Shown here one piece after another: positions 3,040-26,000 of a stretch of DNA of 64,000 nt (positions are counted from its first letter, which is position 1; the number at the start of each line of letters is the position of its first letter). The stretch is from Arthrobacter sp. MYb229. Lineage in GTDB: Bacteria; Actinomycetota; Actinomycetes; Actinomycetales; Micrococcaceae. A program made the translations under genes and the position numbers. The stretch lies in assembly GCF_002975405.1 (NCBI RefSeq), contig NZ_PCPS01000002.1, forward strand, positions 1-64,000, given 5' to 3'. The notes under the pieces are model-generated. The model did not search any database. It was not told the origin of the DNA and saw only the letters and a list, made by a program, of their open reading frames with translations.

Positions 3040-4350
3040 CTACCTCTCAACCTGTCGCCGCGCTTGCGCCGCAAAAAATTCTGTCGCTACCTGCTCATCG
3101 AGCTGATGCATGTAGCCCATGATCGAGCCACCTGCGCTGTACAGGCGGATCCCCGCCAACTCCCGGCGACGCTCCCAGGGGCCCTGCTGCAGCACCATCC
3201 CCTGGATCCGCCTATGCGGCACGAAGGCCGCGCTGCGCGAAAGCCAACCGAAGCGGGTGATCACGCAACTGCCGGTGCTCAAAAACGCCTGATGCTTCCA
3301 GGCCCCCGGAGACAACGCCTTGGCACGAGCCGGTGAGCTGGTGAAACCGTGGTCGGTTCCGCTGGTGATGGCGGTATGCAGCACCGCGCGCTGGTTCTCG
3401 ACCCCCAACTCGGGCAGCAAGATCCCCATCACCTGGGTGACCGCTTCGAAGTCCCCGACGGGCAGCACCAGCAGATTCGACATTTCTTCTTCACCGACAC
3501 CGAGCGCGTTGACCTCCACCCGGTACCAGCCGAGCAGCCGCCAAAAGGCCGGCGAACTGATCTGGATCGACTGCACCCGGCCGGCCGGCAACGACTGCTG
3601 CTTGGTATCGGCCAGCCCGTGGCTGATCCGCAGGCCGGTATCCGTGGCGCTCGCACTGAAGTTCCATGAGTTGTTCAGTTCCTTGTAGAACCAGCCGCCG
3701 AAGCCGAGCAGCATCGGCACCAGGCCGGCAACCAGCACGCCAACCCCCGAGAGGCTCAGGATGCCCAGAACCAACGCCAAGAGCACGCCAACCACCGTGG
3801 GAAGCCGCAGGAACATGGAGGCGAGCAGGCGTCCGGCTGGCACCTTGGCCATCAGCGGAACCGGCTGCGCGGCTTCTTCCTGCACCGGGATCTCGCCTTG
3901 GGCCAGCGCCAGGATCTCGGCACGCAGCTGGTGGGCGTGCGCCTTGCGCAGGAAGGACAGGCGCATGACCGAGGCCGAACCGTCGGCCACATCGAAGCGC
4001 AGTTCGGCCAAGCCGAGCAGCCGGGCCACCAGGGGCTGGGCGATGTCGATGCCCTGCACCCGGTCGATGCGCGCCTGCTTTTGGCTGCGGAAGACCATTC
4101 CGGCGTTCACATAAACGTGGGTTTCGCTGATCCGGTAGCGGGTGAAATACCAGGACAGCGCGTAGAAGATGAGCACCAGCGCCAGCGCCGCCGAGCCGAT
4201 GCCCACGGTCCAGGCCAGCCGGCTGCCGGTGAAACGTTCCGCCCAGGAAATGTCATCGGTATTCTGCCAGTACACCCAGGCCAAACCGACGATGGCCAGC
4301 CAGCCGTGCACAAAGGGGCTGGCCGGGTGGACCCGCTGCCATTCGTTCAC
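3040..4350 (-). CDS. PH domain-containing membrane protein (YdbT-like)
   Basis: About 436 residues with several pairs of hydrophobic segments alternating with bacterial PH (DUF304/YdbT) domains, for example the repeated pattern RISETHVYVNAGMVFR...RIDRVQGIDI and LRISHGLADTKQQSLPAGRVQSIQI. The GTG start at 4350 overlaps the upstream stop codon as GTGA, a coupled arrangement. A longer reading in the same frame exists upstream but is the shadow of the neighbouring gene. Role unknown; pairs of small and large YdbS/YdbT-like proteins are common in Gram-positive bacteria and have been linked to envelope stress and bacteriocin resistance. Confidence 0.8.
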   Translation of the reverse strand: MNEWQRVHPASPFVHGWLAIVGLAWVYWQNTDDISWAERFTGSRLAWTVGIGSAALALVLIFYALSWYFTRYRISETHVYVNAGMVFRSQKQARIDRVQGIDIAQPLVARLLGLAELRFDVADGSASVMRLSFLRKAHAHQLRAEILALAQGEIPVQEEAAQPVPLMAKVPAGRLLASMFLRLPTVVGVLLALVLGILSLSGVGVLVAGLVPMLLGFGGWFYKELNNSWNFSASATDTGLRISHGLADTKQQSLPAGRVQSIQISSPAFWRLLGWYRVEVNALGVGEEEMSNLLVLPVGDFEAVTQVMGILLPELGVENQRAVLHTAITSGTDHGFTSSPARAKALSPGAWKHQAFLSTGSCVITRFGWLSRSAAFVPHRRIQGMVLQQGPWERRRELAGIRLYSAGGSIMGYMHQLDEQVATEFFAAQARRQVER

Positions 4351-4844
4351 AGCAGGTTCGCCTCGCCGGCCGCGACCAAGCGTTCGCGCAATGCCTGCCC
4401 GGTGTCTTCGCGCAGCCCGGGGATGACCGCGGTGGCCGACCCGGCGGCGGTGTTCAGCGTCAGCTTGCACAACCCATAGCGGCGTTCCAGCGGCCCGCTG
4501 GTGACCTCGACATATTGCATGCGCCCGTAGGGGATGACAAGTTGCTTGCGCCAGAGCACCCCGGAACGCACCAGCAGGTCTTCTTCGCGTTCCCGGTAGC
4601 CCAGCGCCCGCACCTGGCGGCGCAGCATGCGCAGGATCGGCAAGGCCAGGCCGAGGACCAGCACCGGCGGGAGGATGACCAACCACCAGGGCACGGGGAG
4701 GCCGAACAGGCGCAGGATCAACGGCAGCAGCGCCACCAGCAGGTAGCTGCCGGTCTGGATCAGCCAGGTGGCCAGCTTGACCTTAAAATAGTCGGGGTCC
4801 ACCGCGGTGAAGTTATTCGGTGACGATTCCATCGGTATTTTCAT
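4347..4844 (-). CDS. PH domain-containing membrane protein (YdbS-like)
   Basis: About 165 residues: two adjacent hydrophobic helices (LATWLIQTGSYLLVALLPLI and a proline-rich second helix) followed by one bacterial PH domain with the characteristic YREREEDLLVRSGVLWRKQLVIPYGRMQ-type sequence. This is the small partner of the YdbS/YdbT pair and overlaps the larger gene by four bases. The ATG at 4844 is chosen because GAGG lies six bases upstream; it overlaps the end of the DUF3180 gene by 32 bp. An ATG at 4832 is the alternative. Function is unknown. Confidence 0.78.
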   Translation of the reverse strand: MKIPMESSPNNFTAVDPDYFKVKLATWLIQTGSYLLVALLPLILRLFGLPVPWWLVILPPVLVLGLALPILRMLRRQVRALGYREREEDLLVRSGVLWRKQLVIPYGRMQYVEVTSGPLERRYGLCKLTLNTAAGSATAVIPGLREDTGQALRERLVAAGEANLL

Positions 4845-5274
4845 CGGTGTCCTCGGGCGGTAGTTTGCAAAGGTGCTGGACAAGGTAGCCGATGACCACC
4901 ATCAGGATCCCGGCGCCGGTGAGGACCATCGCGCGGGTGAGCGTGGGGCTCGAGCCGGAGGCGAACAGCAAGGTCAGCAGCGGGGCCAGATGCCAGCCGG
5001 TAATCAGTGCGCCGGCGTAGGCGGCCGCCTGCGCGAGCACAAGCGTGCGCGCGGCGGCGATCGGGTCGATATGGCCGCGGCCCAGGGTTGAACGCTTGAC
5101 CCGGATGCCGAGGAAGAGGACCACCGCGCACACCGCGCCCAGGGAGAACAACGCGGCGTAGTCGAGCACCGGGGAGAACCTGCCGGCGGCCGTGAGCAGG
5201 CGCAAGGCAACCCAACCGGTCACGCCGCCAAGCAGCGTGCACCAGATGAGCGTGCGCAGCTTGAGCCGGTTCAT
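4813..5274 (-). CDS. DUF3180 family membrane protein
   Basis: A 153-residue protein with four predicted transmembrane helices (LIWCTLLGGVTGWVALRLL, YAALFSLGAVCAVVLFLGI, an alanine-rich third helix, and GAGILMVVIGYLVQHL). The central RVKRSTLGRGHIDPIAAARTLVLAQAAA segment between helices two and three is typical of DUF3180 proteins, which sit after folK in many actinobacteria. Its ATG overlaps the folBK stop as ATGA, so translation is probably coupled. No function is established for the family. Confidence 0.85.
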   Translation of the reverse strand: MNRLKLRTLIWCTLLGGVTGWVALRLLTAAGRFSPVLDYAALFSLGAVCAVVLFLGIRVKRSTLGRGHIDPIAAARTLVLAQAAAYAGALITGWHLAPLLTLLFASGSSPTLTRAMVLTGAGILMVVIGYLVQHLCKLPPEDTDENTDGIVTE

Positions 5275-6104
5275 AGCCTGATGATGTCCGCGGTGTCCGC
5301 CGCTTCGGCCGCCAGCCGGGATACCAGCTGTCCGTTGAGCACCGCGTCGGCATCCATCCAGCTCCACGGGGCGAGCACGAACCCGCGGGTGTGGGCGCGC
5401 GGATGCGGCAGGGTCAGCAGTTCCTCGTCCAGGCGCAGCTGGTCGAAGGTGATCAGATCCAGGTCCAGCGTGCGCGCCTCCCAGCGCACCTCGCGGGTGC
5501 GCTCGTGGTTGGCCTCGATGCTTTGGCACAGCTCAAGCAGCTCGTATGGACCCAGCGTGGTGCGCACCTCGATGACCTGGTTGGTGTAATCGGGCTGCTC
5601 CGGCGGGCCGCCCACCGGCTTGGTCAGCGCTACCGGGGAGGTCCGCAGCACCTCGAGGTGCTCGCGCAGTTCCGCGATGGCCGAGCGCAGCGTCGCGGCG
5701 CTGTCCCCGAGGTTGGCGCCCAGCGCGATAATCGCGGTATGTACGCTCTGCTGCCGGGTCAGCGAGATGCTCACATCGGAAAAAGGCACCGGAATCGGAG
5801 CCTGCGGCTTGTGCACCACCACCTCCACGGTGGCCACCGAGCGCCAGGCGGCGAGGATCGCCTCGGCGATCTGCGCACCGAGCTTTTCGATCAGGTCCCA
5901 GGGTCCGGCCTGGATCTGCGCGACCACCAGCTGGCTGACGGCCCCGTAGTCCACGGTGTCCGCCACGTCATCGCTCAGCGCGGCCCGGGTGATGTCCACA
6001 TGCAGCACCACGTCGATGCGGAATTCCTGGCCTTCGCGCTTCTCGTGGTCGAAGACCCCGTGATAGCCGGTGGCGGAAATTCCCTGAATGCTAATGCGAT
6101 CCAT
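5271..6104 (-). CDS. folBK: FolB-FolK fusion: dihydroneopterin aldolase / HPPK
   Basis: A 277-residue bifunctional folate enzyme. Residues 1-120 are dihydroneopterin aldolase (MDRISIQGISATGYHGVFDHEKREG start; VVHKPQAPIP end), and about 125-277 are 6-hydroxymethyl-7,8-dihydropterin pyrophosphokinase (IIALGANLGD; ARTLDLDLITF; LPHPRAHTRGFVLAPW). The two activities are consecutive steps before folP. The ATG at 6104 overlaps the end of folP by 14 bp. Separate folB and folK genes are the more common actinobacterial state, so the fusion is mildly unusual. No stop or frameshift lies between the halves. Confidence 0.92.
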   Translation of the reverse strand: MDRISIQGISATGYHGVFDHEKREGQEFRIDVVLHVDITRAALSDDVADTVDYGAVSQLVVAQIQAGPWDLIEKLGAQIAEAILAAWRSVATVEVVVHKPQAPIPVPFSDVSISLTRQQSVHTAIIALGANLGDSAATLRSAIAELREHLEVLRTSPVALTKPVGGPPEQPDYTNQVIEVRTTLGPYELLELCQSIEANHERTREVRWEARTLDLDLITFDQLRLDEELLTLPHPRAHTRGFVLAPWSWMDADAVLNGQLVSRLAAEAADTADIIRL

Positions 6105-6993
6105 AGGCCTGCACGACTTCCAACGCGTCGCGGCTGGCCGCCACATCGTGCACGCGCACCGCCCAGGCGTTGTCCCGGGCGGCGAGCACGGTGGTCGCGG
6201 CGGTCGCCACGTCGCGGCCCAGCGGTTCGCGCGGGTCCTTGCCGTCGGCCAGCAGTTCGCCGAGGAAACGCTTGCGGCTGGTGCCGACCAGCACCGGGTG
6301 GCCCAGCGCCGCGAAGGCCGCCAGGTTGGCCAGCAGCGCCCAGTTGTGCTCGGCATTTTTCGCGAAGCCCAGGCCCGGGTCGAGGATCAGCTGTTCGGGC
6401 TTCACGCCCTTGGCCAGGAACTCGTCGCGCAGGGTGCGCAGCTCGGCGAGCACCTCGGCCACCGGGTCCCCGTAGTTCGCCTCGTGCACCATATTCGCGG
6501 CGGTGCCGCGGCGGTGCATCAGCACGTAGGGGACCCCGGTTTCGGCGATCAGTTCCGCCATGCCCTGCTCATAGGTCAGCCCGGAGACATCGTTGACCAG
6601 CTGCGCCCCGGCGGCGATGGCCGCGCGGGCGGTGGACACGTGCATGGTGTCCACGGAGATTACCGCGCCGGCCTTGGCCAGCGCCTCGATCACCGGGATG
6701 ATGCGCGCCTGCTCCAGGGCGGGATCCACGTCCTTGGCTCCGGGACGGGTGGATTCCCCGCCCACGTCGATGATGTCGGCTCCGGCGTAGAGCAGCTTCA
6801 GCCCGTGGTCCAGCGCCTTGTCGGTGCCCAGGAACTCGCCGCCGTCGGAGAAGGAGTCCTCGGTGACGTTCAGGATCCCCATCACCAGGGTGCGCCCGGT
6901 GGGCAGGTCCGCGAAGCTCTTCCGCTTCGACTTGCGGATCACGGTCAGCGGGCTGGTGGCCGGGCCGGTGCCCGGGATGGCTCCAAGTGACAT
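6091..6993 (-). CDS. folP: Dihydropteroate synthase
   Basis: About 300 residues. It condenses 6-hydroxymethyl-dihydropterin pyrophosphate with p-aminobenzoate and is the sulfonamide target. Family motifs are MGILNVTEDSFSDGG near residue 36, DVGGESTRPGA, the SVDTMHV strand, NDVSGL, and DPGLGFAKNAEHN. The ATG at 6993 has GGAAGG eight bases upstream and leaves five bases after folE. It has an N-terminal extension of about 30 residues before the barrel begins. It is translated between folE and the folB-folK fusion in one operon. Confidence 0.95.
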   Translation of the reverse strand: MSLGAIPGTGPATSPLTVIRKSKRKSFADLPTGRTLVMGILNVTEDSFSDGGEFLGTDKALDHGLKLLYAGADIIDVGGESTRPGAKDVDPALEQARIIPVIEALAKAGAVISVDTMHVSTARAAIAAGAQLVNDVSGLTYEQGMAELIAETGVPYVLMHRRGTAANMVHEANYGDPVAEVLAELRTLRDEFLAKGVKPEQLILDPGLGFAKNAEHNWALLANLAAFAALGHPVLVGTSRKRFLGELLADGKDPREPLGRDVATAATTVLAARDNAWAVRVHDVAASRDALEVVQAYGSH

Positions 6994-6998
6994 AATTG

Positions 6999-7577
6999 CT
7001 ACCTTCCGAGGATCAGGCTCATGGCTTCGGCACGGGTTGCGGTCTCGCGCAGCTGTCCGCGCACCGCACTGGTGACGGTCTTCGCGCCGGGCTTGCGCAC
7101 CCCGCGCATCGACATGCACATGTGCTCGCATTCGATCACGACGATCGCGCCGGTGGGTTCGAGGTGTTCGACGAGCGCATCGACGATCTGGGTGGTCAAG
7201 CGCTCTTGCACCTGCGGGCGGCGGGCGAAGACCTCGACCAGGCGCGCCAGCTTGCTCAGACCGGTGACCTTGCCGCCGCGGCCCGGAATGTAGCCGATAT
7301 GCGCGGTGCCGTAGAACGGGACCAGGTGGTGTTCGCAGGTGGAATAGAACGGGATGTCCTTGACCAGCACCAGTTCGTCATGTTCGATGTCGAAAGTGGT
7401 GGACAGGTGTTCGGCGGCATCCTGATGCAAACCGGCGAAGAATTCGGCGTAGGCCTTGGCTACCCGCTTCGGGGTGTCCAGCAGGCCATCGCGGTCCGGA
7501 TCTTCGCCGATCGCTTCGAGGATTTCGCGGACCGCCGCGGCAATGCGCGGCTGGTCGATCTCATTGACTTCAATCAC
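6999..7577 (-). CDS. folE: GTP cyclohydrolase I
   Basis: A 192-residue enzyme that opens GTP to 7,8-dihydroneopterin triphosphate, the first step of folate synthesis. The zinc ligands are visible as CEHH (Cys81, His84) and the Cys in EHMCMSMRG (Cys154). The [12 protein letters not shown] segment is also conserved. It lies ten bases after ftsH and directly before folP, the usual actinobacterial order. Nothing odd is seen. Confidence 0.97.
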
Positions 7578-7587
7578 GACTTCGATC

Positions 7588-9513
7588 CTAGTCGGTCGAA
7601 CGCGCCGCGCGCTCCTTGGGGCTTAATACCGGGCCTTGTTCGTGGACCGGACGCTCGTCGTTGCTCAGCCACACGTCGCGCTTGTCGCGCTTGACCAGAT
7701 CGACGAAGAGCTCGGCGATTTCCTTCTGGTTCAGCGTTTCGTGCTCCAGCAGGGCCAGCGCGAGGCGGTCCAGCACGTGGCGGTTGGCGGTCAGCGCCCA
7801 GTAGGCGTCGTCGTGCGCCTGCTCGATGAGCGTGCGCACCTCCTCGTCGACCAGGTGGGCCATCTCATCGGAGTAGTCCCGGCTCCCGGTGCCCATGCCC
7901 TGCGCGGCGGCCGAGGAGGCCAGGCGCACCGCGCCGATCTTCTCGCTCATGCCGTATTCGGTGACCATCTTGCGTGCGGTGTCGGTGGCCTTCTCGATGT
8001 CGTTGGACGCGCCGGTGGAGGGATCGTGGAAGACGATCTCCTCGGCCACGCGGCCGCCCATGGCGTAGGCCATCTGGTCCAGCAGTTCGTTGCGGGTGAT
8101 CGAGTACTTATCGGACTCCGGGACCACCATGGTGTAGCCCAGGGCGCGGCCGCGGGGCAGGATGGTGATCTTGGTGACCGGTGCGGTCTGGTTCATCGCC
8201 GCGGCCACCAGCGCGTGGCCGCCCTCGTGGTAGGCGGTGACCTTGCGCTCGTGCTCGTCCATCAGCCGGGTGCGCTTCTGCGGCCCGGCCATCACCCGGT
8301 CGATCGCTTCGTCCAGCGCGCGGTCATCGATCAGGTTGGCGTTCGAGCGGGCGGTGAGCAGCGCGGCCTCGTTGAGCACGTTGGCCAAATCCGCGCCGGT
8401 GTAGCCCGGGGTCTTCTTCGCCACCGCGTTCAGATCCACCGTGGCGTCCATCGGCTTGCCGGCCACGTGGACCTTCAGGATCTGTTCGCGGCCCTTCAGA
8501 TCCGGTGCCTCCACCGGGATCTGCCGGTCGAAGCGTCCCGGGCGCAGCAGCGCCGGGTCCAGCACGTCCGGACGGTTGGTCGCGGCGATCAGGATGACGT
8601 TGGTGGAGGCGTCGAAGCCGTCCATCTCGACCAGCAGCTGGTTCAGCGTCTGCTCGCGTTCGTCGTTGCCGCCGCCGATTCCGGCGCCGCGGTGCCGGCC
8701 CACGGCGTCGATCTCATCAACGAAGATGATCGCCGGGGAATTGGTCTTGGCCTGTTCGAACAGGTCGCGCACGCGCGAGGCACCCACGCCGACGAACATC
8801 TCGACGAAGTCGGAACCGGAGATCGAGTAGAACGGGACCGCCGCCTCGCCGGCCACGGCCTTGGCCAGCAGCGTCTTGCCGGTGCCCGGAGGGCCGTAGA
8901 GCAGCACGCCCTTGGGAATCTTCGCGCCCACGGCCTGGAATTTGGCGGGCTCCTGCAGGAACTCCTTGATTTCGTGCAGTTCCTCCACCGCCTCTTCGGC
9001 GCCGGCCACGTCCACGAAGGTCACCTGCGGCATATCCTTGGTGATCAGTTTCGCCTTGGACTTGCCGAACTGCATCACCTTCGAACCGCCACCCTGGCTG
9101 CGCGCCAGGATGAACCAGAAGATGCCTGCAATCAGGATGAAGGGGATAATGATGCCGAGCATCGAGAGCAGCCAGTTGTTTTCCACCGGCTGATCGGTGA
9201 ACTTGCTCAGCTGCGCGTCGTTCATCGCGTCGACCACCTGGTCGGCGCGGGGTACGGAGTAGTAGAAGGAAATCTTCTTTCCCTTGTCCACTCCGTCGAC
9301 GTTCAGCGCGTCGCGCAAGGTCAGGTCTACTCGTTGATCTCCGTCGAAGATCTTCGCTTCGGTGGCGTTACCGCTGGTGAGTTGGTTCAGGCCCACGGAG
9401 GTATCCACTTGTGCCGAACCGTTGCCGAATACCATCGGCAGGAACAACACCATCGCGGTCACACCGACCAGGACCCAAATGATCCAGCTGTTAAAAATCT
9501 TCTTAGTTTTCAT
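7588..9513 (-). CDS. ftsH: ATP-dependent zinc metalloprotease FtsH
   Basis: A 641-residue membrane-bound AAA+ protease that degrades misfolded and regulatory membrane proteins. There are two N-terminal transmembrane helices (residues about 9-30 and 113-137) around an extracytoplasmic domain. The Walker A motif GPPGTGKT is at 207-214, Walker B IIFVDE at 262-267, the second region of homology [20 protein letters not shown] at about 311-330, and the zinc site HEGGH at 429-433. The family more often has HEAGH; the Gly form still keeps both His and the Glu. It is the first gene before folE in the minus-strand operon. Confidence 0.97.
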
Positions 9514-9620
9514 CGACCCGAAAGGTCCCGTACCTTTCGCATCCCCCTCACGCGTTCTGCCGGCGTCCGGGCAACGCCACCTTCGATTCAGTTCAACGCC
9601 TAAGCGGCGTTAAAAGTTCC

Positions 9621-10172
9621 CTACTCGTAGATGTGCGGAGCCAAGGTGCCCACGCAGTCCAGGTTGCGGTACTTTTCCGCGTAATCCAAGCCGTAGCCGA
9701 CAACAAATTCGTTGGGAATGTCCATGCCGACGTATTTCACGTCGATTTCCACCTTCGCCGCTTCCGGCTTGCGCAGCAGGGTGCAGATTTCCACCGAGGC
9801 CGGGCCGCGGGATTCCAGGTTGGCCTTCAACCAGGACAGGGTCAGGCCCGAGTCGATGATGTCTTCGACGATGAGCACATGCTTGCCCATCAAATCGGTG
9901 TCCAGGTCCTTGAGAATACGCACCACGCCGGAAGACTGGGTTCCGGAACCGTAGGAGGAGACCGCCATCCAGTCCATGGACAGGTGGGACTTCAGCGCGC
10001 GGACCAGATCCGCCATGACCATCACCGCACCCTTGAGCACGCCGACAACGAGGATGTCGCGTCCCTCGTAATCCTTGTCGATCTGTGCGGCCAGGTCATC
10101 GATGCGAGCCTGGATTTCTTCCTTGGTATACAGTACGTGCGCGAGATCGGCCTTGACTGTGTTCGAATCCAC
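9621..10172 (-). CDS. hpt: Hypoxanthine phosphoribosyltransferase
   Basis: About 183 residues of the purine salvage enzyme making IMP or GMP from free base and PRPP. The PRPP-binding loop VLIVEDIIDSGLTL, the GVLKGAVMVMADLVRAL loop and the VGYGLDYAEKYRNLD C-terminal motif are intact. A GTG at 10172 with AGGAG eight bases upstream is preferred; a TTG at 10208 would add 12 residues. It lies between tilS and ftsH, an order conserved across many bacteria. Confidence 0.94.
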   Translation of the reverse strand: MDSNTVKADLAHVLYTKEEIQARIDDLAAQIDKDYEGRDILVVGVLKGAVMVMADLVRALKSHLSMDWMAVSSYGSGTQSSGVVRILKDLDTDLMGKHVLIVEDIIDSGLTLSWLKANLESRGPASVEICTLLRKPEAAKVEIDVKYVGMDIPNEFVVGYGLDYAEKYRNLDCVGTLAPHIYE

Positions 10173-10222
10173 GAGGGTTCTCCTGATTCTCAGAGGTGGG
10201 GTACTCAACTAGAGTGCCACAT

Positions 10223-11179
10223 TTAGTTTAGTGTTGTTGAGCTTGTGGTCGTGAAAACTATCACCGAGGAGCGCCGCAACGCACTGATCTTGCCTTCGAG
10301 CTGCACCGGACCGGCCGAACGGGACTTGCTCGCCCCCACCCCGGCCAGCGCGCACAAGGCCGCCGTGCGCTCGCTGCCCAGATTCTGCGCCCCGGCCTCG
10401 GCGGCGGCCAGGCGCAGCACCCTGGAGGCGATGGCTTCGGGAAAAGTGGCAAGAATCCGCAAGTCCACCCCGGCGGCGCTGCGTGCCTGCGCCCAGGCTC
10501 GGCCGGCCCAGGAGTCCAGCGCGTCTGCGTCCGCCGCCGCCAGCGCCGCGGTGCGGGCCAGCGCCTCGGTCAGGTGCCCGCCGAGCTGCGCACGCAAAAA
10601 CGGGAGCACCTCGTGGCGGATGTGGTTGCGTCGGTAGGCGGTGTCCGCATTGCTCGGGTCTTCCCAGTACTCGACGCCGGCCCGCGCGCAGATGTGCTCG
10701 GTGTCTTGGCGGGTCAGCTCCAGCAGCGGGCGGGCGTAGGGGCCGCGCGAGACGGGTATTCCGGCCAAGGACCTGGTGCCCGAACCGCGCAGGATCCCCA
10801 GCAGCACCTGTTCGGCCTGATCGTCTTTGGTGTGCGCGAGCAGCAGGCGTTGCGCCCCGGTCTGCTCCATGGCTTGCTCGAAGGCCGCATATCGGGCGGC
10901 CCGGGCGGAGGCCTCGTCCCCGGCGGTGTGCACCGTCTTGAGCAGCACCTCCTCCAGGCCCAGCGCCTGGCATTGCGCGGCGGCGCGCGCCGCCACCGCG
11001 GCGCTGCCCGCTTGCAGGCCATGGTCCACGATCACCACGGCGAAGCGGATCCGCTCGCGCAGCTGGCTGGCGGCAACGGCCAGCGCCAGGGAGTCGGCCC
11101 CGCCCGAAACGCCGAGCAGCGCGAATTCTCCGGCCTGCGCCGCCACCGCGTTGCGGGCCAGGTCGATCGGCCGGCTCAT
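10223..11179 (-). CDS. tilS: tRNA(Ile)-lysidine synthetase
   Basis: A 318-residue N-type ATP pyrophosphatase that modifies C34 of the tRNA reading AUA to lysidine, giving isoleucine decoding. The PP-loop signature is GVSGGADSLAL near residue 23, followed by VVIVDHGLQ, LAHTKDDQAEQVLL and YRRNHIRHEVLPFL, all family hallmarks. The ATG at 11179 overlaps the upstream DUF2342 stop as ATGA. It is shorter than the E. coli enzyme and lacks the far C-terminal domain, as is normal in actinobacteria. Confidence 0.94.
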   Translation of the reverse strand: MSRPIDLARNAVAAQAGEFALLGVSGGADSLALAVAASQLRERIRFAVVIVDHGLQAGSAAVAARAAAQCQALGLEEVLLKTVHTAGDEASARAARYAAFEQAMEQTGAQRLLLAHTKDDQAEQVLLGILRGSGTRSLAGIPVSRGPYARPLLELTRQDTEHICARAGVEYWEDPSNADTAYRRNHIRHEVLPFLRAQLGGHLTEALARTAALAAADADALDSWAGRAWAQARSAAGVDLRILATFPEAIASRVLRLAAAEAGAQNLGSERTAALCALAGVGASKSRSAGPVQLEGKISALRRSSVIVFTTTSSTTLN

Positions 11180-12099
11180 CGGGTGCGGGCCAGCCAGCGT
11201 GCGGGGTTGTCGAGTTCCGCGGAGCTGGGGAACAGTTCCCGGTCGGTGAAGATCTCGTTGAAGCCGGCATAGCCGATCTCGTCCACCAGGTGGCGCACGA
11301 ACTTCGCGCCGCGCTCGTACTGGCGGGCCTTGGCGTCCATGCCCAGCAGCTTGCCGATCCAGCTGGCCCAGGGCGAACGGTTCTTGCCGCGGGCGGTGAA
11401 GCGGTTGCGGATGGTCTTGATCGTGCGGATCGAGCTGACATCGTTCATCACGACCATTGCGTGGCCTTCGAGCACCGACATGATGCTGGTCAGCTCGCCG
11501 ACCTCGCTGCGCATGGTTTTGATCCGCGCCCCGATGTCGTTCATCGAGTTGGTCTTCCCGCCCAGCGGCTCGAAGACCTCGGCCAGGGTCTGCTTCATCA
11601 CCCCAGGGATCCATGGCGCATGTTCGAACTGCAGCCGGTGGGTCTGCTCGTGGGTGGCGATCCACAGGTAGAAGTCCCGCGCGTTCAGGTTCAGCTCGCC
11701 GCGGATCTGGGTGATCGTCGGGGCGTTGAGCAGCAGCCGGGGGCCGGCGAACGGGTCGAATTGCCCCAGCACCCGGGGGCCGAGCACCGAAAGCACCGCA
11801 CCGAGTTCCGCCCCGGCGATCAGCGGCAGGGCGGTGGGGGTTTTGGGCAGCTCGGGAAGCATTGCGGCGAAGTTCTGGCTGACCGCCTTGGCCCATCCGG
11901 CGCGGTCCACCACGAGGGTTTCGGAGGGTGCGGTGGAGGTCAGCTGCGAGATCCGTTCGGCCTCGGTGAGCCCCTGCCCGCCGGCGATGCGCAGTTCTTC
12001 CACGATCCGCGCCGCCTGTTTGCCGCTCAGCGCCGGCCCGGCGGGCATCAGCGTTTTTGCGGTGCTTACGGCGAGATCCCAATCGATGAACTGGCTCAT
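11176..12099 (-). CDS. Zinc-dependent metalloprotease, DUF2342 family
   Basis: A 307-residue protein with an HEQTH zinc-binding motif at residues 150-154, set in YLWIATHEQTHRLQFEHAPW. The GVMKQTLAEVFEPLGGKTNSMNDI stretch and the VLEGHAMVVMNDV segment are typical of DUF2342, sometimes mislabelled as coenzyme F420-associated. Substrate unknown. The gene sits between dacB and tilS, and its stop overlaps the tilS start. Actinobacteria conserve this position, which suggests a housekeeping role. Confidence 0.85.
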   Translation of the reverse strand: MSQFIDWDLAVSTAKTLMPAGPALSGKQAARIVEELRIAGGQGLTEAERISQLTSTAPSETLVVDRAGWAKAVSQNFAAMLPELPKTPTALPLIAGAELGAVLSVLGPRVLGQFDPFAGPRLLLNAPTITQIRGELNLNARDFYLWIATHEQTHRLQFEHAPWIPGVMKQTLAEVFEPLGGKTNSMNDIGARIKTMRSEVGELTSIMSVLEGHAMVVMNDVSSIRTIKTIRNRFTARGKNRSPWASWIGKLLGMDAKARQYERGAKFVRHLVDEIGYAGFNEIFTDRELFPSSAELDNPARWLARTR

Positions 12100-15643: not shown

Positions 15644-16327
15644 ATGGCAACTTTCAGCTCCCCCAAATTGGCCCGCCTGACACCCCTGGCGCAGCTTCGC
15701 GCCGGGCGGCTTCCGCGGCGCCTCATCCAGCTCTTCGTGGGCCTGACCCTTTTTGGCCTGGCCATGGCGGGCTTTGTCCGTTCGGGACTGGGCCTGGCCC
15801 CATGGGATGTGCTCCATTACGGCGTGACCCTGCACACCGGCCTCAGCCTGGGCACAGTGGTGATCCTCTTCGGCTTCCTCGTGCTGCTGCTCTGGATCCC
15901 GCTGCGCCAGATGCCCGGCCTGGGCACCATCGCCAACGTCATCTGGATCGGAGTGGCCGCCGACATCGGACTGGCCGTGATTCCGCAGGCAGATTCCCTC
16001 CCCACGCAGCTGGCCCTGTTCGCCGGCTCCCTGCTGGTGAACGGGTTCGGCGGCGGGCTCTATATCGGCAGCCAGCTTGGCCCGGGGCCGCGCGACGGAC
16101 TGATGACCGGGCTGCATGCGCGCACCGGAGTCAGCCTGCGCCTGGCGCGCACCGGAGTCGAAGTCAGCGTGCTGGCCATCGGCTGGCTGCTGGGCGGCAT
16201 CGTCGGCTTCGGAACCGTTTTGTATGCGGTGGCCATCGGACCGGTCACCCAGCTCTTCCTGCGCTTCTGCATCGTCGAGCTGCGCGCGGAGCACCCCGCC
16301 GAGGAAGCGCCCACGCCCGCCGCTTAG
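15644..16327 (+). CDS. YczE/YyaS/YitT family membrane protein (copy 1)
   Basis: A 227-residue polytopic membrane protein with about five hydrophobic helices. Family features are the RSGLGLAPWDVLHYGVTLHTGLSLG start, PGLGTIANVIWIG, and GSQLGPGPRDGLMTGLHARTG. No transport substrate is established for the family. It is transcribed divergently from a MocR regulator that probably controls it. A close paralogue without an adjacent regulator lies at 25356-26000; the two share the same layout and nearly the same motif sequences. Confidence 0.82.
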   Translation: MATFSSPKLARLTPLAQLRAGRLPRRLIQLFVGLTLFGLAMAGFVRSGLGLAPWDVLHYGVTLHTGLSLGTVVILFGFLVLLLWIPLRQMPGLGTIANVIWIGVAADIGLAVIPQADSLPTQLALFAGSLLVNGFGGGLYIGSQLGPGPRDGLMTGLHARTGVSLRLARTGVEVSVLAIGWLLGGIVGFGTVLYAVAIGPVTQLFLRFCIVELRAEHPAEEAPTPAA

Positions 16328-18194: not shown

Positions 18195-18926
18195 TCAGCG
18201 CTGGCTTTCAAGAGCTTTGAATAATTCGGATTCCACGCCCATGATGATTCGATCTCCCGGGTGCGTATCGCGTAGAAATTTCTCCACCGTAGCCAGATCC
18301 GTGGAGATGCAACCCCAGGTTTCGCGCAGTCCCGCATGGAGGAATATCGCGAAGCTCCGCCCGTGCACCGGCCGAGCGTCGGGCGCTCGGTTGTAGTTGA
18401 CAACGGCTGCCTGCTGGTAGTCCCCGGCCTGCATATATCGCCAGAGCGGTTCGTCGGGAAACTCGCCCGCTCCCTCAAAATAGCTGTTAAAGCGCCGCCC
18501 CTCGCGCCCACTCCAATAGGAATCCTCGGTGAGCTCACGGTAGCCAAGGCTCGTTCCCGGATTGCTTCGACCAAACGCTTCGGTGACGCTATAGGACCCG
18601 GTTGGTGTCTGCAGCGAATTGACATACACGGGACCGGGTCTGGCAAAACCGGCGCTGCCGGCAAAGCCCCGGGCATTCCACTGCTGCGTGTAACCATCGC
18701 GGCCGAGCAGACAATTGGTGATGGTTACCTCGGTTTGTCCATAGGCCGGCGCCAGCACGAAGGTGACGCGCTGGCTCAGTTCAAGTTCCGGCTTCAACCG
18801 GTGGATCGATGCGCAGGGCCCGCTTTGGGCCGGCGACCGGTCCGGCAAATCGCGGTGAGGAGCCCCGGCTGCCAGCGCAAGCATGCCGACCAGCAGGGCA
18901 CTCATCAACCGTTGTTGTAGCTTCAT
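18195..18926 (-). CDS. Murein L,D-transpeptidase catalytic domain-like secreted protein
   Basis: A 243-residue exported protein with a signal peptide (LMSALLVGMLALAAGAP) followed by an L,D-transpeptidase-like domain. The catalytic block is SFAIFLHAGLRETWGCISTD, with the His and the Cys-Ile-Ser core of the HxxG-GCxS family pattern. YQQAAVVNYNRAPD precedes it. It probably acts on peptidoglycan peptides or cell-wall amides. The ATG at 18926 begins just before the signal sequence, although its ribosome-binding site is poor and an ATG seven codons later is possible. The gene is divergent from the large NRPS-like gene. Confidence 0.78.
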   Translation of the reverse strand: MKLQQRLMSALLVGMLALAAGAPHRDLPDRSPAQSGPCASIHRLKPELELSQRVTFVLAPAYGQTEVTITNCLLGRDGYTQQWNARGFAGSAGFARPGPVYVNSLQTPTGSYSVTEAFGRSNPGTSLGYRELTEDSYWSGREGRRFNSYFEGAGEFPDEPLWRYMQAGDYQQAAVVNYNRAPDARPVHGRSFAIFLHAGLRETWGCISTDLATVEKFLRDTHPGDRIIMGVESELFKALESQR

Positions 18927-19307
18927 GCAATGATCTTCGCAGAACCAGGGGCCATGCTGTGCACGTAGCGGCCGCTGTCGAATTTGGAGGAACTTCTCAG
19001 CTCTGCTGGCCACCAAAAGGAAATATTCATCTCACTAGTACGGATGGCCTAGGGTGAATGCCTGCTGATCGAAATTATTTGAATGCTCAGCCGCTCCGAA
19101 GCCCGCCGCGAGCGCGCCGAGTTGACGCACGCGGCAAATAATTGCAATGATTTTATTTAGTGGCTCACGCCAGTGGAGGCTCCTGACCATGGGGATGGGC
19201 AGGAAGAGTTCCACGCGGCGCGAGTTGGCTTCGCAGAGTTTAACCACCGGCGAAGCGCGATTGCTGGGGAGCAATCGCCCGGAGCCATTCCGGTTCACAA
19301 CATAACA
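18927..19307. other. 381-bp divergent intergenic region
   Basis: This gap separates the L,D-transpeptidase and NRPS-like genes and holds no convincing coding sequence; a minus-strand frame (19035-19388) has no recognisable product. A plus-strand TTGACG (19122-19127) followed after 18 bp by AATGAT (19146-19151), next to a GCAA-ATAA-TTGC palindrome (19133-19144 region), is a weak promoter candidate for the NRPS gene. Local AT content is higher than in the flanking genes. Confidence 0.45.
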
Positions 19308-22300
19308 ATGATCCTTGGGGGAAAATTGATCGATTGGGACTATTCCGCGCGCTCCGGCGCCTCGTCGGACGTTATTCCGGCAGCACACAAATTTGACTCC
19401 TCGATAGTCGAGAATCCGGCGGACAGCGAAACAGCACTCTTTGCGAGCACCGCACCGGCTCCCGCGCGGACCCTGGTCGATATCATCACCACGACCATGG
19501 AGGTCTACCCTTCGGCGCTGGCCCTCGACGACGGAACCTGTGCGCTGAGCTACGCCCAGTTGCGTGTTGAAACCGAAGAATTAGCCAAACGACTGTGGGC
19601 CATGGACATCGGCGCCGGGGACCGCGTCGGGGTGCGGGTGCCTTCGGGTTCCAAGAATCTCTACGTCGCCATTTTGGGCACCCTCTTCGCCGGGGCGGCC
19701 TACGTCCCGGTAGACGCCGACGAGCCCGAGGATCGCGCCACCACGGTGTGGGAGGAAGCCGGAGTCTGCGTGGTCATCGGCGAGAACCTGGCCATCACCC
19801 ACCGCGCGGGAGTGCGCACGCAAGGCAATAGCCCGTTTCCCACCCCGGTCGATGACGCGTGGATCATCTTCACCTCCGGTTCCACCGGAAAGCCCAAGGG
19901 CGTGGCCATCACCCACCGATCGGCGGCCGCCTGGGCCGATGCGGAGGCCGAGATGTTCCTCCAGGATGCCCCGCTGACCCGCGGGGACCGGGTGCTGGCC
20001 GGACTTTCTGTCGCCTTTGACGCCTCCTGCGAGGAAATGTGGCTCGCCTGGCGCCACGGGGCCTGCCTGGTTCCGGCGCCGCGGGACATCGTGCGCTCCG
20101 GCGCCGACCTCGGCGACTGGCTCGGCGAGCGCAAGGTCACCGTGGTCTCCACCGTTCCCACGCTCGCAGCCCTGTGGCCGGCGGAAACCCTGGAGAATAT
20201 CCGCCTGCTGATTTTCGGCGGCGAAGCGCTCCCGCCGGAGCTGGTCGAGCGCCTGGCCGGTCCGACCCGCGAGGTTTGGAACACCTACGGGCCGACCGAA
20301 GCCACGGTGATCGCCTGCGGAGCGCCCGTGGCTGGCGGTGGTCCGGTCAGCATCGGCTTGCCGCTGCGCGGCTGGGACCTGGCCGTGGTTGACGCCGAAG
20401 GCTTTCCGGTGCCCTGGGGCTCGGAGGGTGAGCTGATCATCGGCGGCGTGGGCCTGGGACGCTACCTCGACCCGCAGAAGGACGCGCAGAAGTTTGCCCC
20501 GATGCCGACCCTGGGCTGGGAGCGGGCCTACCGTAGCGGGGATATGGTCCGCGCCGAGCGCGACGGGCTGCTTTTTGTGGGCCGCGCCGACGAGCAGGTC
20601 AAGCTCGGCGGGCGCCGCGTGGAACTCGGCGAGATCGACGAGGCGTTGGCGGCGCTGCCCGGCGTGGCCCAAGCGGCCGCGGCGGTGCAGTCCACCCCGA
20701 GCGGAAATAAGGTGCTGGCCGGCTATCTGGTTCCCGACGCCGGCGCCGCCCTCGACCTGGCGGCCTGCCGATCCCGGCTCGCCGAATTCCTGCCCGCCCA
20801 GCTGGTCCCCGCGCTGGGGCAGGTCGCCGAGCTGCCGCTGAAAACCTCCGGCAAGGTGGACCGCAAGGGGTTGCCCTGGCCGCTCCATGGCGCCACGGAA
20901 GAACCGATTGGGCATCGGCTCACCGGCACCGAAGGCTGGGTTGCCGAGATCTGGACCGAGCTGCTCGGCCCGGTGGCTTTGGATGCGGACAGCGACTTCT
21001 TCGCCGCAGGCGGCGCCAGCGTGGCGGCGGCCCAACTGGTTGGCGTGCTGCGCACCCGCCACCGGCAGGCGTCCATCGCCGATATCTATAACCGGCCCAC
21101 CCTCGGCGCGCTGGCGGCACATCTGGATGCCCAGGGAACCACCGAGGCAACGGTCCGCGAACAGCGGCCAACCGGATGGTGGATCGGGTTGGTGCAGGCA
21201 CCAGTCATCGGTGCCCTGTACTCGATCATCGGTTTGCGCTACGTCACCGGCATGGCATTGGTGTGCTGGATCCTGTTCAACTTCATGGATGCCAGCTGGG
21301 TTCCCAACCCGCCGCTGATCCCGCTCCTGGCGGCCTGGGTGGTGCTCTACACCTTGCCCTTCCGGGTGCTGCTGGTCGTGGTTTCGGCCCGCCTGCTGCT
21401 CGCCGGGGTGCACGCCGGTGCATACCGGCGCGGCGGCGGCGTGCATCTGCGCCTTTGGGCGGTGGAGCGCATCGTGACCTTCGCAAAAGTCGAAGCGCTG
21501 ATGGGCACGCCGCTGGCACCGTGGTACGCCCGCGCCCTGGGCAATAAGATCGGCAAGAATGTGCACCTCGACGCCATGCCTCCCGTCACCGGGCTGGCCC
21601 GCATCGGCTCGGACACGGCCATCGAATACGAGGTTGACCTCGCCGGGCATTGGCTCGACGGGGACACTCTGCGCATCGGGCAGATCGACATCGGCCAGCG
21701 GGTGCGCATCGGCACCCGTTCAACTATTAACCCCGGCGCGCGGATCGGCAACGGGGCGGAGATCGAGGCCGGCAGCAGCGTGGACGGAACGGTTGGGCCC
21801 AATGAGCTCGTCTCGGGCTCCCCGCTGGAATATGCAGGCGTCGCGGGCGATAGCTGGCCGCAGGCCGAGCCCCGCGCACCGCGCCACGGCTTCCGCGTCG
21901 GCCTCGGCGGGCTCTACGCGCTGGGCCTGGGCTATCTGGCCCTGCTCCCGATGCTCTCGGTGCTGCCCGGCGGGCTGCTCCTGTTCTCGCTGATCGATGG
22001 CGGCTCCGCGCTGGGCGAAGTGCTCTGGCAGCTGGCCGCTTGGGCACCGGTGTTCATCGTGCTGATGGTGCTCAGCTTCGCCGGCCTCACCGCGCTCAGC
22101 GTCCGGCTGCTGGCCCGCTTGCTGACTCCCGGCTTCCACAGCGCCCACGGCCTCACCGCCTGGGCCTGCTGGCTGAGCAACCTGCTGCTGGCCAAGTCGC
22201 TGATGTCCCTGTACCCGATCTACGCAAGCATCATCACCCCGCTGTGGCTGCGGATGCTCGGCGCCAAGGTCGGGGCGCACACCGAAATCTCCACCCTGGA

Positions 22301-23279
22301 AACCATCCCGCACCTGACCACGCTGGGCGACCGCTGCTTCATGGCCGATCACTCGTTGGCCTCCCATCGGCGAGTTCGCGGCCAGTGGCTGCAGCTGGGG
22401 CAGGCAACGGTCGGGGCGAAGTCCTTTGTGGGCAACTCGGCCATCGTCGGGCCGGACACCGTGGTGCCGGCCGATTCGCTGATCGCCGTGCTCTCGTCGG
22501 CTCCGCAGGACATGCCGGTCGCGTCAAACTGGTTTGGCCGCCCGGCCATGGAACTGCCCCGCCCGATAGACAACGCCGAATCCGCGCTGACCTACAATCC
22601 ATCGCGAGGGCTGATGGCCGCCCGCGCCCTGGTCGAGCTTTGCCGCATCTTGCCGATGCTCATCACCAGCTGGCTGGCGCTGGGCACCGTCTGGATACTC
22701 TCGGAGATCTTCGACCGGTCCGGGCTGGCACTCACCTTGCTGCTGTCCGGTCCGGTGCTGCTGGGCTCGGCGAGCATCGCCGCATTGACCGCACTCATCG
22801 CCAAGTGGGCGCTGGTCGGCCGTTTCCGGGCCGAGGAACATCCGCTGTGGACCTCGTTCATCTGGCGCAACGAGCTGGCAGACGTATTCAGCGAGTCGCT
22901 GGCCGTGGCGGGAGTGGTGCGCATGAGCCTGGGCACCCCGATGCTCAATTTATGGTTTCGCCTGCTCGGCGCGCGCATTGGCCGCCGAGTCTGGTGCGAA
23001 ACCTGGTGGCTGCCGGAGCAGGACCTGATCAGCATCGGCGACGGAGCAAGCATCAACCGCGGCACCGTGCTGCAGACCCATCTCTTCCATGACCGCATTA
23101 TGCGCCTGGAGGAGGTGCACCTCGGCGCGCAGGCAACATTGGCACCGAACGGGGTGATCCTGCCCGGTAGCCGAATTGGCGATGCGGCGGCAATCGGCCC
23201 CTGCTCGCTGGTGATGCGCTCGGAACAGGTTCCCGCAAACGGGCGTTGGCGCGGCAACCCGATCCGCAGCTGGTCCTGA
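19308..23279 (+). CDS. Pls-like NRPS: adenylation, carrier and membrane/hexapeptide C-terminal domains
   Basis: About 1,323 residues with no condensation or thioesterase domain. An adenylation domain (about 50-540) shows IIFTSGSTGKPKG, NTYGPTE, YRSGD, GRADEQVKLGGRRVELGEID and LKTSGKVDRK. A carrier domain follows, with FFAAGGAS holding the phosphopantetheine Ser. The last 650 residues alternate transmembrane helices with three left-handed beta-helix (hexapeptide) acyltransferase-like blocks. This A-T-membrane layout and length match epsilon-poly-L-lysine synthetase (Pls) and the TIGR02353 terminal domain. Aligned by eye to GrsA, the specificity residues read D-A-E-S-I-G-T-V-I-K, close to codes assigned to lysine. 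The ATG at 19308 lacks a ribosome-binding site; a TTG at 19326 after GGGGGA is an alternative. Confidence 0.88.
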   Translation: MILGGKLIDWDYSARSGASSDVIPAAHKFDSSIVENPADSETALFASTAPAPARTLVDIITTTMEVYPSALALDDGTCALSYAQLRVETEELAKRLWAMDIGAGDRVGVRVPSGSKNLYVAILGTLFAGAAYVPVDADEPEDRATTVWEEAGVCVVIGENLAITHRAGVRTQGNSPFPTPVDDAWIIFTSGSTGKPKGVAITHRSAAAWADAEAEMFLQDAPLTRGDRVLAGLSVAFDASCEEMWLAWRHGACLVPAPRDIVRSGADLGDWLGERKVTVVSTVPTLAALWPAETLENIRLLIFGGEALPPELVERLAGPTREVWNTYGPTEATVIACGAPVAGGGPVSIGLPLRGWDLAVVDAEGFPVPWGSEGELIIGGVGLGRYLDPQKDAQKFAPMPTLGWERAYRSGDMVRAERDGLLFVGRADEQVKLGGRRVELGEIDEALAALPGVAQAAAAVQSTPSGNKVLAGYLVPDAGAALDLAACRSRLAEFLPAQLVPALGQVAELPLKTSGKVDRKGLPWPLHGATEEPIGHRLTGTEGWVAEIWTELLGPVALDADSDFFAAGGASVAAAQLVGVLRTRHRQASIADIYNRPTLGALAAHLDAQGTTEATVREQRPTGWWIGLVQAPVIGALYSIIGLRYVTGMALVCWILFNFMDASWVPNPPLIPLLAAWVVLYTLPFRVLLVVVSARLLLAGVHAGAYRRGGGVHLRLWAVERIVTFAKVEALMGTPLAPWYARALGNKIGKNVHLDAMPPVTGLARIGSDTAIEYEVDLAGHWLDGDTLRIGQIDIGQRVRIGTRSTINPGARIGNGAEIEAGSSVDGTVGPNELVSGSPLEYAGVAGDSWPQAEPRAPRHGFRVGLGGLYALGLGYLALLPMLSVLPGGLLLFSLIDGGSALGEVLWQLAAWAPVFIVLMVLSFAGLTALSVRLLARLLTPGFHSAHGLTAWACWLSNLLLAKSLMSLYPIYASIITPLWLRMLGAKVGAHTEISTLETIPHLTTLGDRCFMADHSLASHRRVRGQWLQLGQATVGAKSFVGNSAIVGPDTVVPADSLIAVLSSAPQDMPVASNWFGRPAMELPRPIDNAESALTYNPSRGLMAARALVELCRILPMLITSWLALGTVWILSEIFDRSGLALTLLLSGPVLLGSASIAALTALIAKWALVGRFRAEEHPLWTSFIWRNELADVFSESLAVAGVVRMSLGTPMLNLWFRLLGARIGRRVWCETWWLPEQDLISIGDGASINRGTVLQTHLFHDRIMRLEEVHLGAQATLAPNGVILPGSRIGDAAAIGPCSLVMRSEQVPANGRWRGNPIRSWS

Positions 23280-23314: not shown

Positions 23315-24511
23315 ATGCACCAGCAGATCGAGCGCGCCCCGAACCCGGCGCCGCAGTCGCGGCTCGCGGGGATCGACGCGGCCCGCGGCCTAGCCCTGTT
23401 GGGCATGATCGCCATCCACGTGCTGCCAGCCAGCAGCGAAGCCTTCGAACCCACGCTGATCTGGCGGATCGCCGCGGGCACCTCCGCGGCCCTGTTCGCG
23501 CTGCTAGCCGGGGTCGGCCTGAGCCTGGGCGCAAGAACTGCGGGCCATTCGGCGCTCGAACTGGCCGGGGCGCGGGCCGCGCTAGCTACCCGCGCGGCAT
23601 TCATGCTCTGTTTGGGCCTGCTGCTGGCGCTCATCGATATGCCTGCGTTCATCATCCTCGGCTATTACGGGGTGATGTTTGCCCTGGCCATCCCGTGGGT
23701 CTCACGCAGCGCGGCAACCCTCGGCTTCGCGTGCCTGGGCTTTGCTACCCTAGGCACCATTTTCACTTGGCAGCTGGGCGCTTCGCTGCCCCACCTGGAT
23801 GGCATCGATCCGTCGCTGACCACACTCTTCACCGAACCCGGGGCGACGCTCAGCGCACTGCTGTTCACCGGAACCTACCCGGCGGTGCCGTGGATGAGCT
23901 ATATCTGCGCCGGCATGGCACTAGGCACGCTGAACTTACGCTCCAAGGATCTGCAACTGCGCCTGCTGCTGACCGGGCTGGGCCTCTGGCTAGCAACCTG
24001 GGCCAGCTCGGCGCTGCTGCTCGGCCCCTTGGGCGGCAGGTCTGCGCTGATCAAGTCGACCGAAGGTTGGCTGAGCGCCGCCGAGGTCGATGAATCACTG
24101 AGCTTCGGGCTGCCCTCAGGGGTTCCGCTAGATTCCGCCTGGTGGCAGGTGGCGCTCGCCCCGCACTCGAATATGCTCTTCGAAACGCTCAACACCCTTG
24201 GCGTCGCGCTGCTGGTTTTCGCCGTCGCCCTGATGCTCGGCCAACGAGTCGCCTGGTTGCTGCGCCCGTTGGGCATCCTCGGCTCGATGACGCTCACGCT
24301 CTACACGCTGCACCTGCTGTTGCTGGCCACCGGCTTGGGCGCGCAGCATCCGGCGAGCTCCTGCTCCCTGCAGATCGGCGGCGCACTGCTGTTCGCGGTA
24401 CTTTGGAAGAACGTTTCGGGGCTCGCCCAGGGCCCCTTGGAGCACCTGGTCGGTTCACTGGCCCGAAACGCTCGCTCCCGGGCGCGCCGACGCCGGCGCG
24501 TGGCTCCGTAG
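23315..24511 (+). CDS. DUF418/DUF1624-type acyltransferase-like membrane protein
   Basis: About 398 residues and roughly ten transmembrane helices. The N-terminal GIDAARGLALLGMIAIHV block is the signature of the acyltransferase-3/heparan-alpha-glucosaminide acetyltransferase-like superfamily (DUF1624/DUF418). PWMSYICAGMALG and the closing GPLEHLVGSL fit as well. GGAGAG lies before the ATG at 23315. It starts 35 bases after the NRPS-like gene on the same strand and is likely co-transcribed, so it may acylate, export or otherwise finish that product. That link is inference. An Arg-rich cytoplasmic tail ends the protein. Confidence 0.72.
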   Translation: MHQQIERAPNPAPQSRLAGIDAARGLALLGMIAIHVLPASSEAFEPTLIWRIAAGTSAALFALLAGVGLSLGARTAGHSALELAGARAALATRAAFMLCLGLLLALIDMPAFIILGYYGVMFALAIPWVSRSAATLGFACLGFATLGTIFTWQLGASLPHLDGIDPSLTTLFTEPGATLSALLFTGTYPAVPWMSYICAGMALGTLNLRSKDLQLRLLLTGLGLWLATWASSALLLGPLGGRSALIKSTEGWLSAAEVDESLSFGLPSGVPLDSAWWQVALAPHSNMLFETLNTLGVALLVFAVALMLGQRVAWLLRPLGILGSMTLTLYTLHLLLLATGLGAQHPASSCSLQIGGALLFAVLWKNVSGLAQGPLEHLVGSLARNARSRARRRRRVAP

Positions 24512-25355: not shown

Positions 25356-26000
25356 ATGAGCTTGACGAACCTATCCCCGCGCCAGCAGTTTGCCGCCGGC
25401 CGGGTCGCGCTGCGCCTGGCGAACCTGTTCGGCGGGCTGCTGCTCTTCGCGTTGGCGATGGCGCTGATGGTGCGCGCCGATCTGGGCGTGGACCCGTGGA
25501 ACGTCTTCCACCTGGGCATCACCCACCACGTGCCGCTGTCGCTGGGCACCGTGGTGATCCTCGTGGGCGTTCTGATGCTGCTGACCTGGATCCCGATGAA
25601 GCAGTGGCCGGGGCTCGGCACCGTGGCCAATGTCTTTGTCATCGGCCTGGCCCTGGACCTCTTTCTGCTCATCCTTCCGCAGGTCTCCGGGCTGGGCTGG
25701 CAGATCCTCACGCTGCTCGGCGCGATCGCGATCAACGGGCTGGGCGGTGCGATGTACATCGGCAGCCACTTCGGCGCCGGGCCGCGCGACGGGTTGATGA
25801 CCGGGCTGCACCTGCGCACCGGGTTGAGCATCCGGCTGGTGCGCACCAGCATCGAGCTGCTGGTGCTGGGCATCGGCTGGCTGCTCGGCGGCCCGGTGGG
25901 CCTGGGCACGGTGGCCTATGCGCTGCTCATCGGTCCCGCCACGCAGTTCTTCTTCCGCTTCACCATCATCAAGCTAGGCGCCACCGGCGCGCGGATCTGA
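25356..26000 (+). CDS. YczE/YyaS/YitT family membrane protein (copy 2)
   Basis: A 214-residue five-helix membrane protein and a paralogue of the one at 15644. It shares DLGVDPWNVFHLGITHHVPLSLGTVVIL, PGLGTVANVFVIGL, and IGSHFGAGPRDGLMTGLHLRTG with it. TACCGT ends seven bases before the ATG, so it may be transcribed from its own leaderless promoter rather than with pcp. Its 3' end overlaps the convergent M20 hydrolase gene by 27 bp. Function unknown. Confidence 0.82.
   Translation: MSLTNLSPRQQFAAGRVALRLANLFGGLLLFALAMALMVRADLGVDPWNVFHLGITHHVPLSLGTVVILVGVLMLLTWIPMKQWPGLGTVANVFVIGLALDLFLLILPQVSGLGWQILTLLGAIAINGLGGAMYIGSHFGAGPRDGLMTGLHLRTGLSIRLVRTSIELLVLGIGWLLGGPVGLGTVAYALLIGPATQFFFRFTIIKLGATGARI

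Follow-up and report, generated by a model that had tools for sequence, protein, structure and literature searches.

The window analysed here comprises the first 64,000 nucleotides of contig NZ_PCPS01000002.1 of Arthrobacter sp. MYb229 and carries on its forward strand a gene coding for a Pls-like synthetase (pls), with a transmembrane acyltransferase gene immediately 3' of it and a gene for a YkuD-like protein divergent from it (Table 1). The synthetase frame is intact and, at 1,323 residues, has the length of Pls, as the initial annotation had pointed out. Where translation starts is uncertain: the open frame reaches back to 19173, no convincing ribosome-binding site was found upstream of 19308, and the alignments of relatives to the window synthetase begin mostly at residues 35-50. 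The open frame of the acyltransferase begins with a TTG at 23246 and overlaps the end of pls.

Table 1. Features of the clade B pls locus in the window and of the related gene pair elsewhere in the genome
Feature	Position	Strand	Remarks
pls-like synthetase gene (clade B)	19308..23279	+	1323 aa; exact start codon uncertain
Adenylation domain, residues 36-528	19413..20891	+	pocket code DAESIGTVIK, A3-A10 motifs intact
Carrier (T) domain, residues 544-606	20937..21125	+	phosphopantetheine site GGAS
Membrane polymerisation half, residues 612-1323	21141..23276	+	TIGR02353 terminal domain
Beta-helix block 1 (C1), residues about 764-845	21597..21842	+	Pfam, AlphaFold2 model, fold search
Beta-helix block 2 (C2), residues about 1004-1083	22317..22556	+	AlphaFold2 model, fold search
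Beta-helix block 3 (C3), residues about 1241-1321	23028..23270	+	conserved QTHLFHDR; model, fold search
Transmembrane acyltransferase (HGSNAT_cat/AT3, TmAT superfamily)	23315..24511	+	DxxRx10H, FxxxxG, TMH9 Tyr conserved
YkuD/L,D-transpeptidase-like protein	18195..19016	-	divergent from pls; invariant H...GC motif
Divergent dapA/acyltransferase pair	G000:C19:84205-85776		equivalents in G001, G002, G004, G050, G096, G099

The domain anatomy of the synthetase is far beyond chance. Pfam searches revealed a single AMP-binding domain (residues 63-383), a single PP-binding domain (residues 544-606) with its carrier serine intact, and one Hexapep stretch (residues 795-825); the second and third beta-helix blocks gave no Pfam match. 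TIGR02353, the NCBIfam model of the Pls/PosA terminal domain, matched residues 642-1319 with 576.1 bits (cut-off 423.1 bits), covering model positions 10-695 of 695. Classical condensation and thioesterase domains were absent in Pfam and NCBIfam searches, and hydropathy analysis placed three clusters of membrane segments at residues 625-692, 868-939 and 1107-1168. An AlphaFold2 model of residues 612-1323, built from 63 relatives (pLDDT 93.5, pTM 0.92), shows a unit of long paired helices, core helices and a left-handed β-helix that occurs three times, and the nearest solved structures in a fold search of the PDB were hexapeptide acetyltransferases. These results bear out the proposal, made from the letters of the DNA, of one adenylation and carrier module followed by membrane helices alternating with three hexapeptide-like blocks. 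An ordinary NRPS and a DltA-like ligase were rejected as candidates, the respective models scoring far under their cut-offs.

The best PDB match of the adenylation domain was 7WEW, the crystallised adenylation domain of ε-poly-L-lysine synthase (640 bits, 62.6% identity). The pocket codes DAESIGTVIK of the window enzyme and DAESIGTVVK of 7WEW differ by one change, valine to isoleucine at position 9, while positions 1, 2 and 3 (Asp, Ala, Glu) are identical. According to Patel and Gulick (PMC10522769), these three positions set charge and chain length of the monomer; position 2 is proposed to set chain length, with Ala in lysine, Met in ornithine and Phe in diaminopropionate or diaminobutyrate activators, and Glu at position 3 has been shown to bind the side-chain amine in PosA. 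Both the Ala at position 2 and the Glu at position 3 thus favour lysine, which, judged by pocket, tree and motifs, is very probably the monomer of the window synthetase. The product is likely to be ε-poly-lysine, with isopeptide linkage.

Phylogenetic analysis was performed on 98 sequences by a quick method that gave long-branch warnings, and the verified Pls of Corynebacterium variabile was not included. In this tree 12 rows with the pockets DFECLSVVTK or DGESVSVVNK stood apart from 86 lysine-pocket rows. The window protein fell within the lysine-pocket superclade that also contains 7WEW, as part of a separate clade of 31 rows from Micrococcaceae and Corynebacterium (clade B, support 100); the remaining lysine-pocket rows are referred to as clade A, the classical type. 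Clade B was also recovered with the adenylation half alone (81/99.9) and with the membrane half alone (100), and a chimera joining an adenylation domain and a membrane half from different lineages was rejected, as both halves yield the same clade. The comparison with Pls and TIGR02353 proteins that the initial annotation had called for thus groups the window protein with lysine-pocket Pls enzymes, away from the DFE and DGE types; together with the TIGR02353 and 7WEW matches and the intact core motifs, it upholds the assignment to the Pls architecture and not to that of a normal NRPS. Kinship to the known bacterial synthetase of the antimicrobial polymer ε-poly-lysine is almost certain and the same job is probable. 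The window enzyme is probably an L-lysine-polymerising synthetase of the Pls type from a lineage distinct from those characterised.

A different cationic homopolymer, built of ornithine, diaminobutyrate, diaminopropionate, beta-lysine or another diamino acid, appears very improbable as the product. Such a monomer could be argued from the isoleucine at pocket position 9 and from the presence of Pls-family members with other pockets in the same bacterial family. Against it stand the Ala at position 2, found in lysine activators, as opposed to the Met of PosA, the Phe of PDAP and PDAB and the Gly of the beta-lysine type (PMC10522769), the clustering of the window protein with lysine-pocket enzymes away from the DFE and DGE types, and the dapA neighbours of its relatives, which point to lysine supply. 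With pocket and tree speaking against a different monomer, this candidate was set aside, and the suggestion of a new cationic isopeptide is disfavoured, the pocket being a lysine pocket with positions 1, 2 and 3 as in Pls.

The genome of the window carries a second pls (G000:C19:19381-23274), 48% identical to the window copy, which has the pocket DAESIGTVVK and belongs to clade A. Within the genus, full-length members of the family were found in 14 of 18 genomes; all 14 carry the classical type, and only the window genome and one other (G002) have a clade B pls in addition. In the bacterial family as a whole, 82 of 149 genomes hold a TIGR02353 member over the cut-off. Several TIGR02353 matches in G099, G100, G134, G147 and other genomes lie in frames of only about 1050-1130 aa, less than a full Pls, which suggests that in some members the adenylation part is shortened or lacking. 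Synthetases with the diaminobutyrate/diaminopropionate-type pocket DFECLSVVTK are present in several Micrococcaceae genomes (L152, L142, L164, L168, L172, L176 and others); some of these genomes contain several genes of the Pls type.

The neighbours of 118 usable lysine-pocket loci (26 of clade B, 92 of clade A), searched with profiles, differ markedly between the two clades. An acyltransferase of the HGSNAT/AT3 type adjoins pls at 25 of the 26 loci in clade B and at none of the 92 in clade A; an M1 peptidase was found nearby at 6/26 and 87/92, respectively. For dapA nearby the counts were 14/26 versus 1/92, and for an adjacent YkuD-like gene 12/26 versus 0/92. Fisher p-values for these associations are very small but overstated, since the loci are related and were treated as independent. 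In nearer relatives the genes commonly follow one another as pls, dapA, acyltransferase, most having dapA directly after pls; the YkuD-like gene lies either divergently upstream or downstream. At the window locus dapA is absent from the pls cluster, as is the PldII-like M1 peptidase, an accessory feature that does not define Pls. An M1 peptidase resembling the polylysine-degrading PldII adjoins the classical pls of the same genome, in keeping with the peptidase context in Streptomyces and C. variabile, to which it is likened by context and not by sequence (PMC8117764). In that context PldII degrades ε-PL and has been proposed to protect the producer (PMC8117764).

Further genes of the window were discarded as cluster members: the pyroglutamyl peptidase (24712), YczE (25356) and M20 peptidase (25974) genes have no homologues near pls in relatives. 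The window contains two genes for YczE-like membrane proteins, at 15644-16327 (recognised by eye) and 25356-26000 (by NCBIfam match), the former adjoining a minus-strand gene for a MocR-like (PLP-dependent) regulator.

Enzymes of the TmAT superfamily use cytosolic acyl-CoA to acylate acceptors outside the cytosol, which in known cases are mostly carbohydrates, and HGSNAT acetylates an amine. The partner acyltransferase of the window matched HGSNAT_cat with only 35 bits (cut-off 22), and the same model matched all 26 aligned homologues. Conserved in the protein are Asp and Arg in TMH1 and, separated from them by ten residues, a His, as well as Phe-x4-Gly in TMH2 and Tyr in TMH9. In a survey of TmAT proteins Asp, Arg, Phe, Gly and Tyr are conserved superfamily-wide, and the His is a feature of the AT3 family proposed for catalysis (PMC12423673). 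With DxxR, Phe-x4-Gly and Tyr conserved, the motifs of the acyl-CoA site are thus kept in the partner. A PDB sequence search with the acyltransferase found nothing; the fold search with its model (pLDDT 93.3) did, the 12 best matches all being chains of human HGSNAT with TM-scores of about 0.5. Genes matching HGSNAT_cat number only 1-3 per genome within the genus. The same acyltransferase family also occurs near two DFE-type synthetases and beside a synthetase with the pocket DGESVSVVNK. The pocket of this last synthetase, a Micrococcaceae Pls homologue, differs by one residue from the reported code for epsilon-poly-beta-lysine. Its gene is flanked by dapA, the acyltransferase and a gene resembling lysine 2,3-aminomutase; the locus (L141, G096:C63:80500-92500, at 4047-11698) is likely a poly-beta-lysine cluster outside Streptoalloteichus.

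From these data a working model can be drawn, probable in its synthetase part. The adenylation domain would activate lysine and load the carrier domain, and the membrane half with its three beta-helix blocks would link lysines one after another, each time through the activated carboxyl and the side-chain amine of a further lysine, delivering the resulting short isopeptide homopolymer to or across the membrane. The TmAT-family partner might then use cytosolic acyl-CoA to acylate, most simply to acetylate, free amines of the polymer on the outer side. It would thereby fill the position that the PldII-like peptidase has in classical pls operons, and might serve to protect the producer itself. Such N-acylation is plausible, since TmAT enzymes transfer acyl groups outward, HGSNAT acts on an amine and polylysine presents many amines outside; still, we put acylation of the polymer by this partner at somewhat below even chances. 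The fuller picture, of a second ε-poly-lysine lineage whose exported polymer is N-acylated by a dedicated TmAT and, in certain genera, attached by the YkuD-like protein to the wall, so that the product would be a previously undescribed polylysine that is modified, self-protected or wall-bound, is offered with still more reserve.

It is possible, though rather doubtful, that the acyltransferase instead serves lysine/diaminopimelate metabolism or the cell wall and clusters with pls only through a shared lysine supply or through dapA, leaving the polymer untouched. A divergent pair of dapA and a paralogous HGSNAT-type acyltransferase was found away from pls in all 7 genomes checked, and the pls-linked subfamily itself has close copies at sites apart from pls; the target of the acyltransferase may therefore not be the polymer. 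The clade B loci of Kocuria and Corynebacterium argue the other way, as they combine pls and acyltransferase without dapA.

The YkuD-like protein bears on another alternative, that the polymer is a component of the cell envelope and not a free antimicrobial, the YkuD-like protein attaching polylysine through its amines to peptidoglycan and the acyltransferase trimming the charge of the polymer. L,D-transpeptidases are able to join the side-chain amine of lysine to peptidoglycan, as in Braun lipoprotein. The H...GC motif is invariant in 12 members of the YkuD-like family, and a search of 148 genomes of the bacterial family gave eight best matches (at least 395 bits) that all lie beside a clade B pls, the next ones (339 bits and below) being located elsewhere. 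Along with the adjacency to nearly half of the clade B loci and to none of clade A, in varying arrangement, these matches speak for an envelope role; the weak Pfam match to YkuD, under its cut-off (18.5 versus 23.4 bits), and the lack of the gene at the clade B loci of Kocuria, Nesterenkonia and Corynebacterium speak against it, and we consider an envelope component an improbable product. Wall attachment of polylysine is accordingly speculative. The modified surface component that had been put forward as an alternative product may nonetheless be made, given the two neighbours of pls, the YkuD-like gene and that of the transmembrane acyltransferase.

The product of such proteins in Micrococcales-like organisms had been described as not generally known. 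This does not hold, as Jiang et al. (2021) showed that the Pls of C. variabile makes epsilon-poly-L-lysine and listed Pls homologues in Arthrobacter, Glutamicibacter, Microbacterium, Micrococcus and others, so that homologues in coryneform and Micrococcales bacteria are already known; C. variabile gave no native epsilon-PL under the culture conditions tried (PMC8117764). Calls of ε-PL clusters exist for Agrococcus and Microbacterium as well (PMC12067966). Taken alone, the window synthetase is one more probable polylysine producer on an already long list. In the open-access literature we found no experimental test of any clade B member, no report of an acyltransferase linked to polylysine and no description of the clade-specific set of acyltransferase, dapA and YkuD-like genes, which is weak evidence of absence. 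The exchange of the peptidase for an acyltransferase in this lineage, which recurs beside synthetases of the poly-β-lysine and DFE types, provides a simple handle on producer survival and on the tailoring of cationic polymers, which are poorly understood in the ε-PL literature, and makes polylysine-type polymers a candidate class of acceptors for TmAT acyltransferases.

By mechanism the window synthetase appears to be an ordinary member of the Pls/PosA family; its lineage is uncharacterised and has a set of partners that is different yet consistent. It shares domain order, length and the TIGR02353 terminal domain with Pls of Streptomyces albulus (7WEW) and of C. variabile (PMC8117764), and with Pls nine of ten pocket residues and 63% identity over the adenylation domain; unlike Pls, it belongs to a separate clade in which a pls-linked acyltransferase replaces the PldII-like peptidase, often along with dapA and the YkuD-like gene. 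PosA, the delta-poly-L-ornithine synthetase of Acinetobacter baumannii, has the same architecture, and our model of the membrane half agrees with the published description of three beta-helices on six membrane helices, whereas the pocket of PosA, DMEHNGTVSK, accepts ornithine (PMC10522769). The epsilon-poly-beta-lysine synthetase of Streptoalloteichus (DGESISVVNK, PMC10522769) shares the family architecture and differs in pocket and tree position; the Micrococcaceae member with the nearly identical beta-lysine code has dapA and acyltransferase neighbours in common with clade B. Among the members of the TmAT superfamily (HGSNAT, AT3/OafB, YeiB; PMC12423673), the partner is alike in DxxR, the x10-His, FxxxxG and the TMH9 Tyr and in a model that matches human HGSNAT, and stands apart by its mere 35 bits to HGSNAT_cat.
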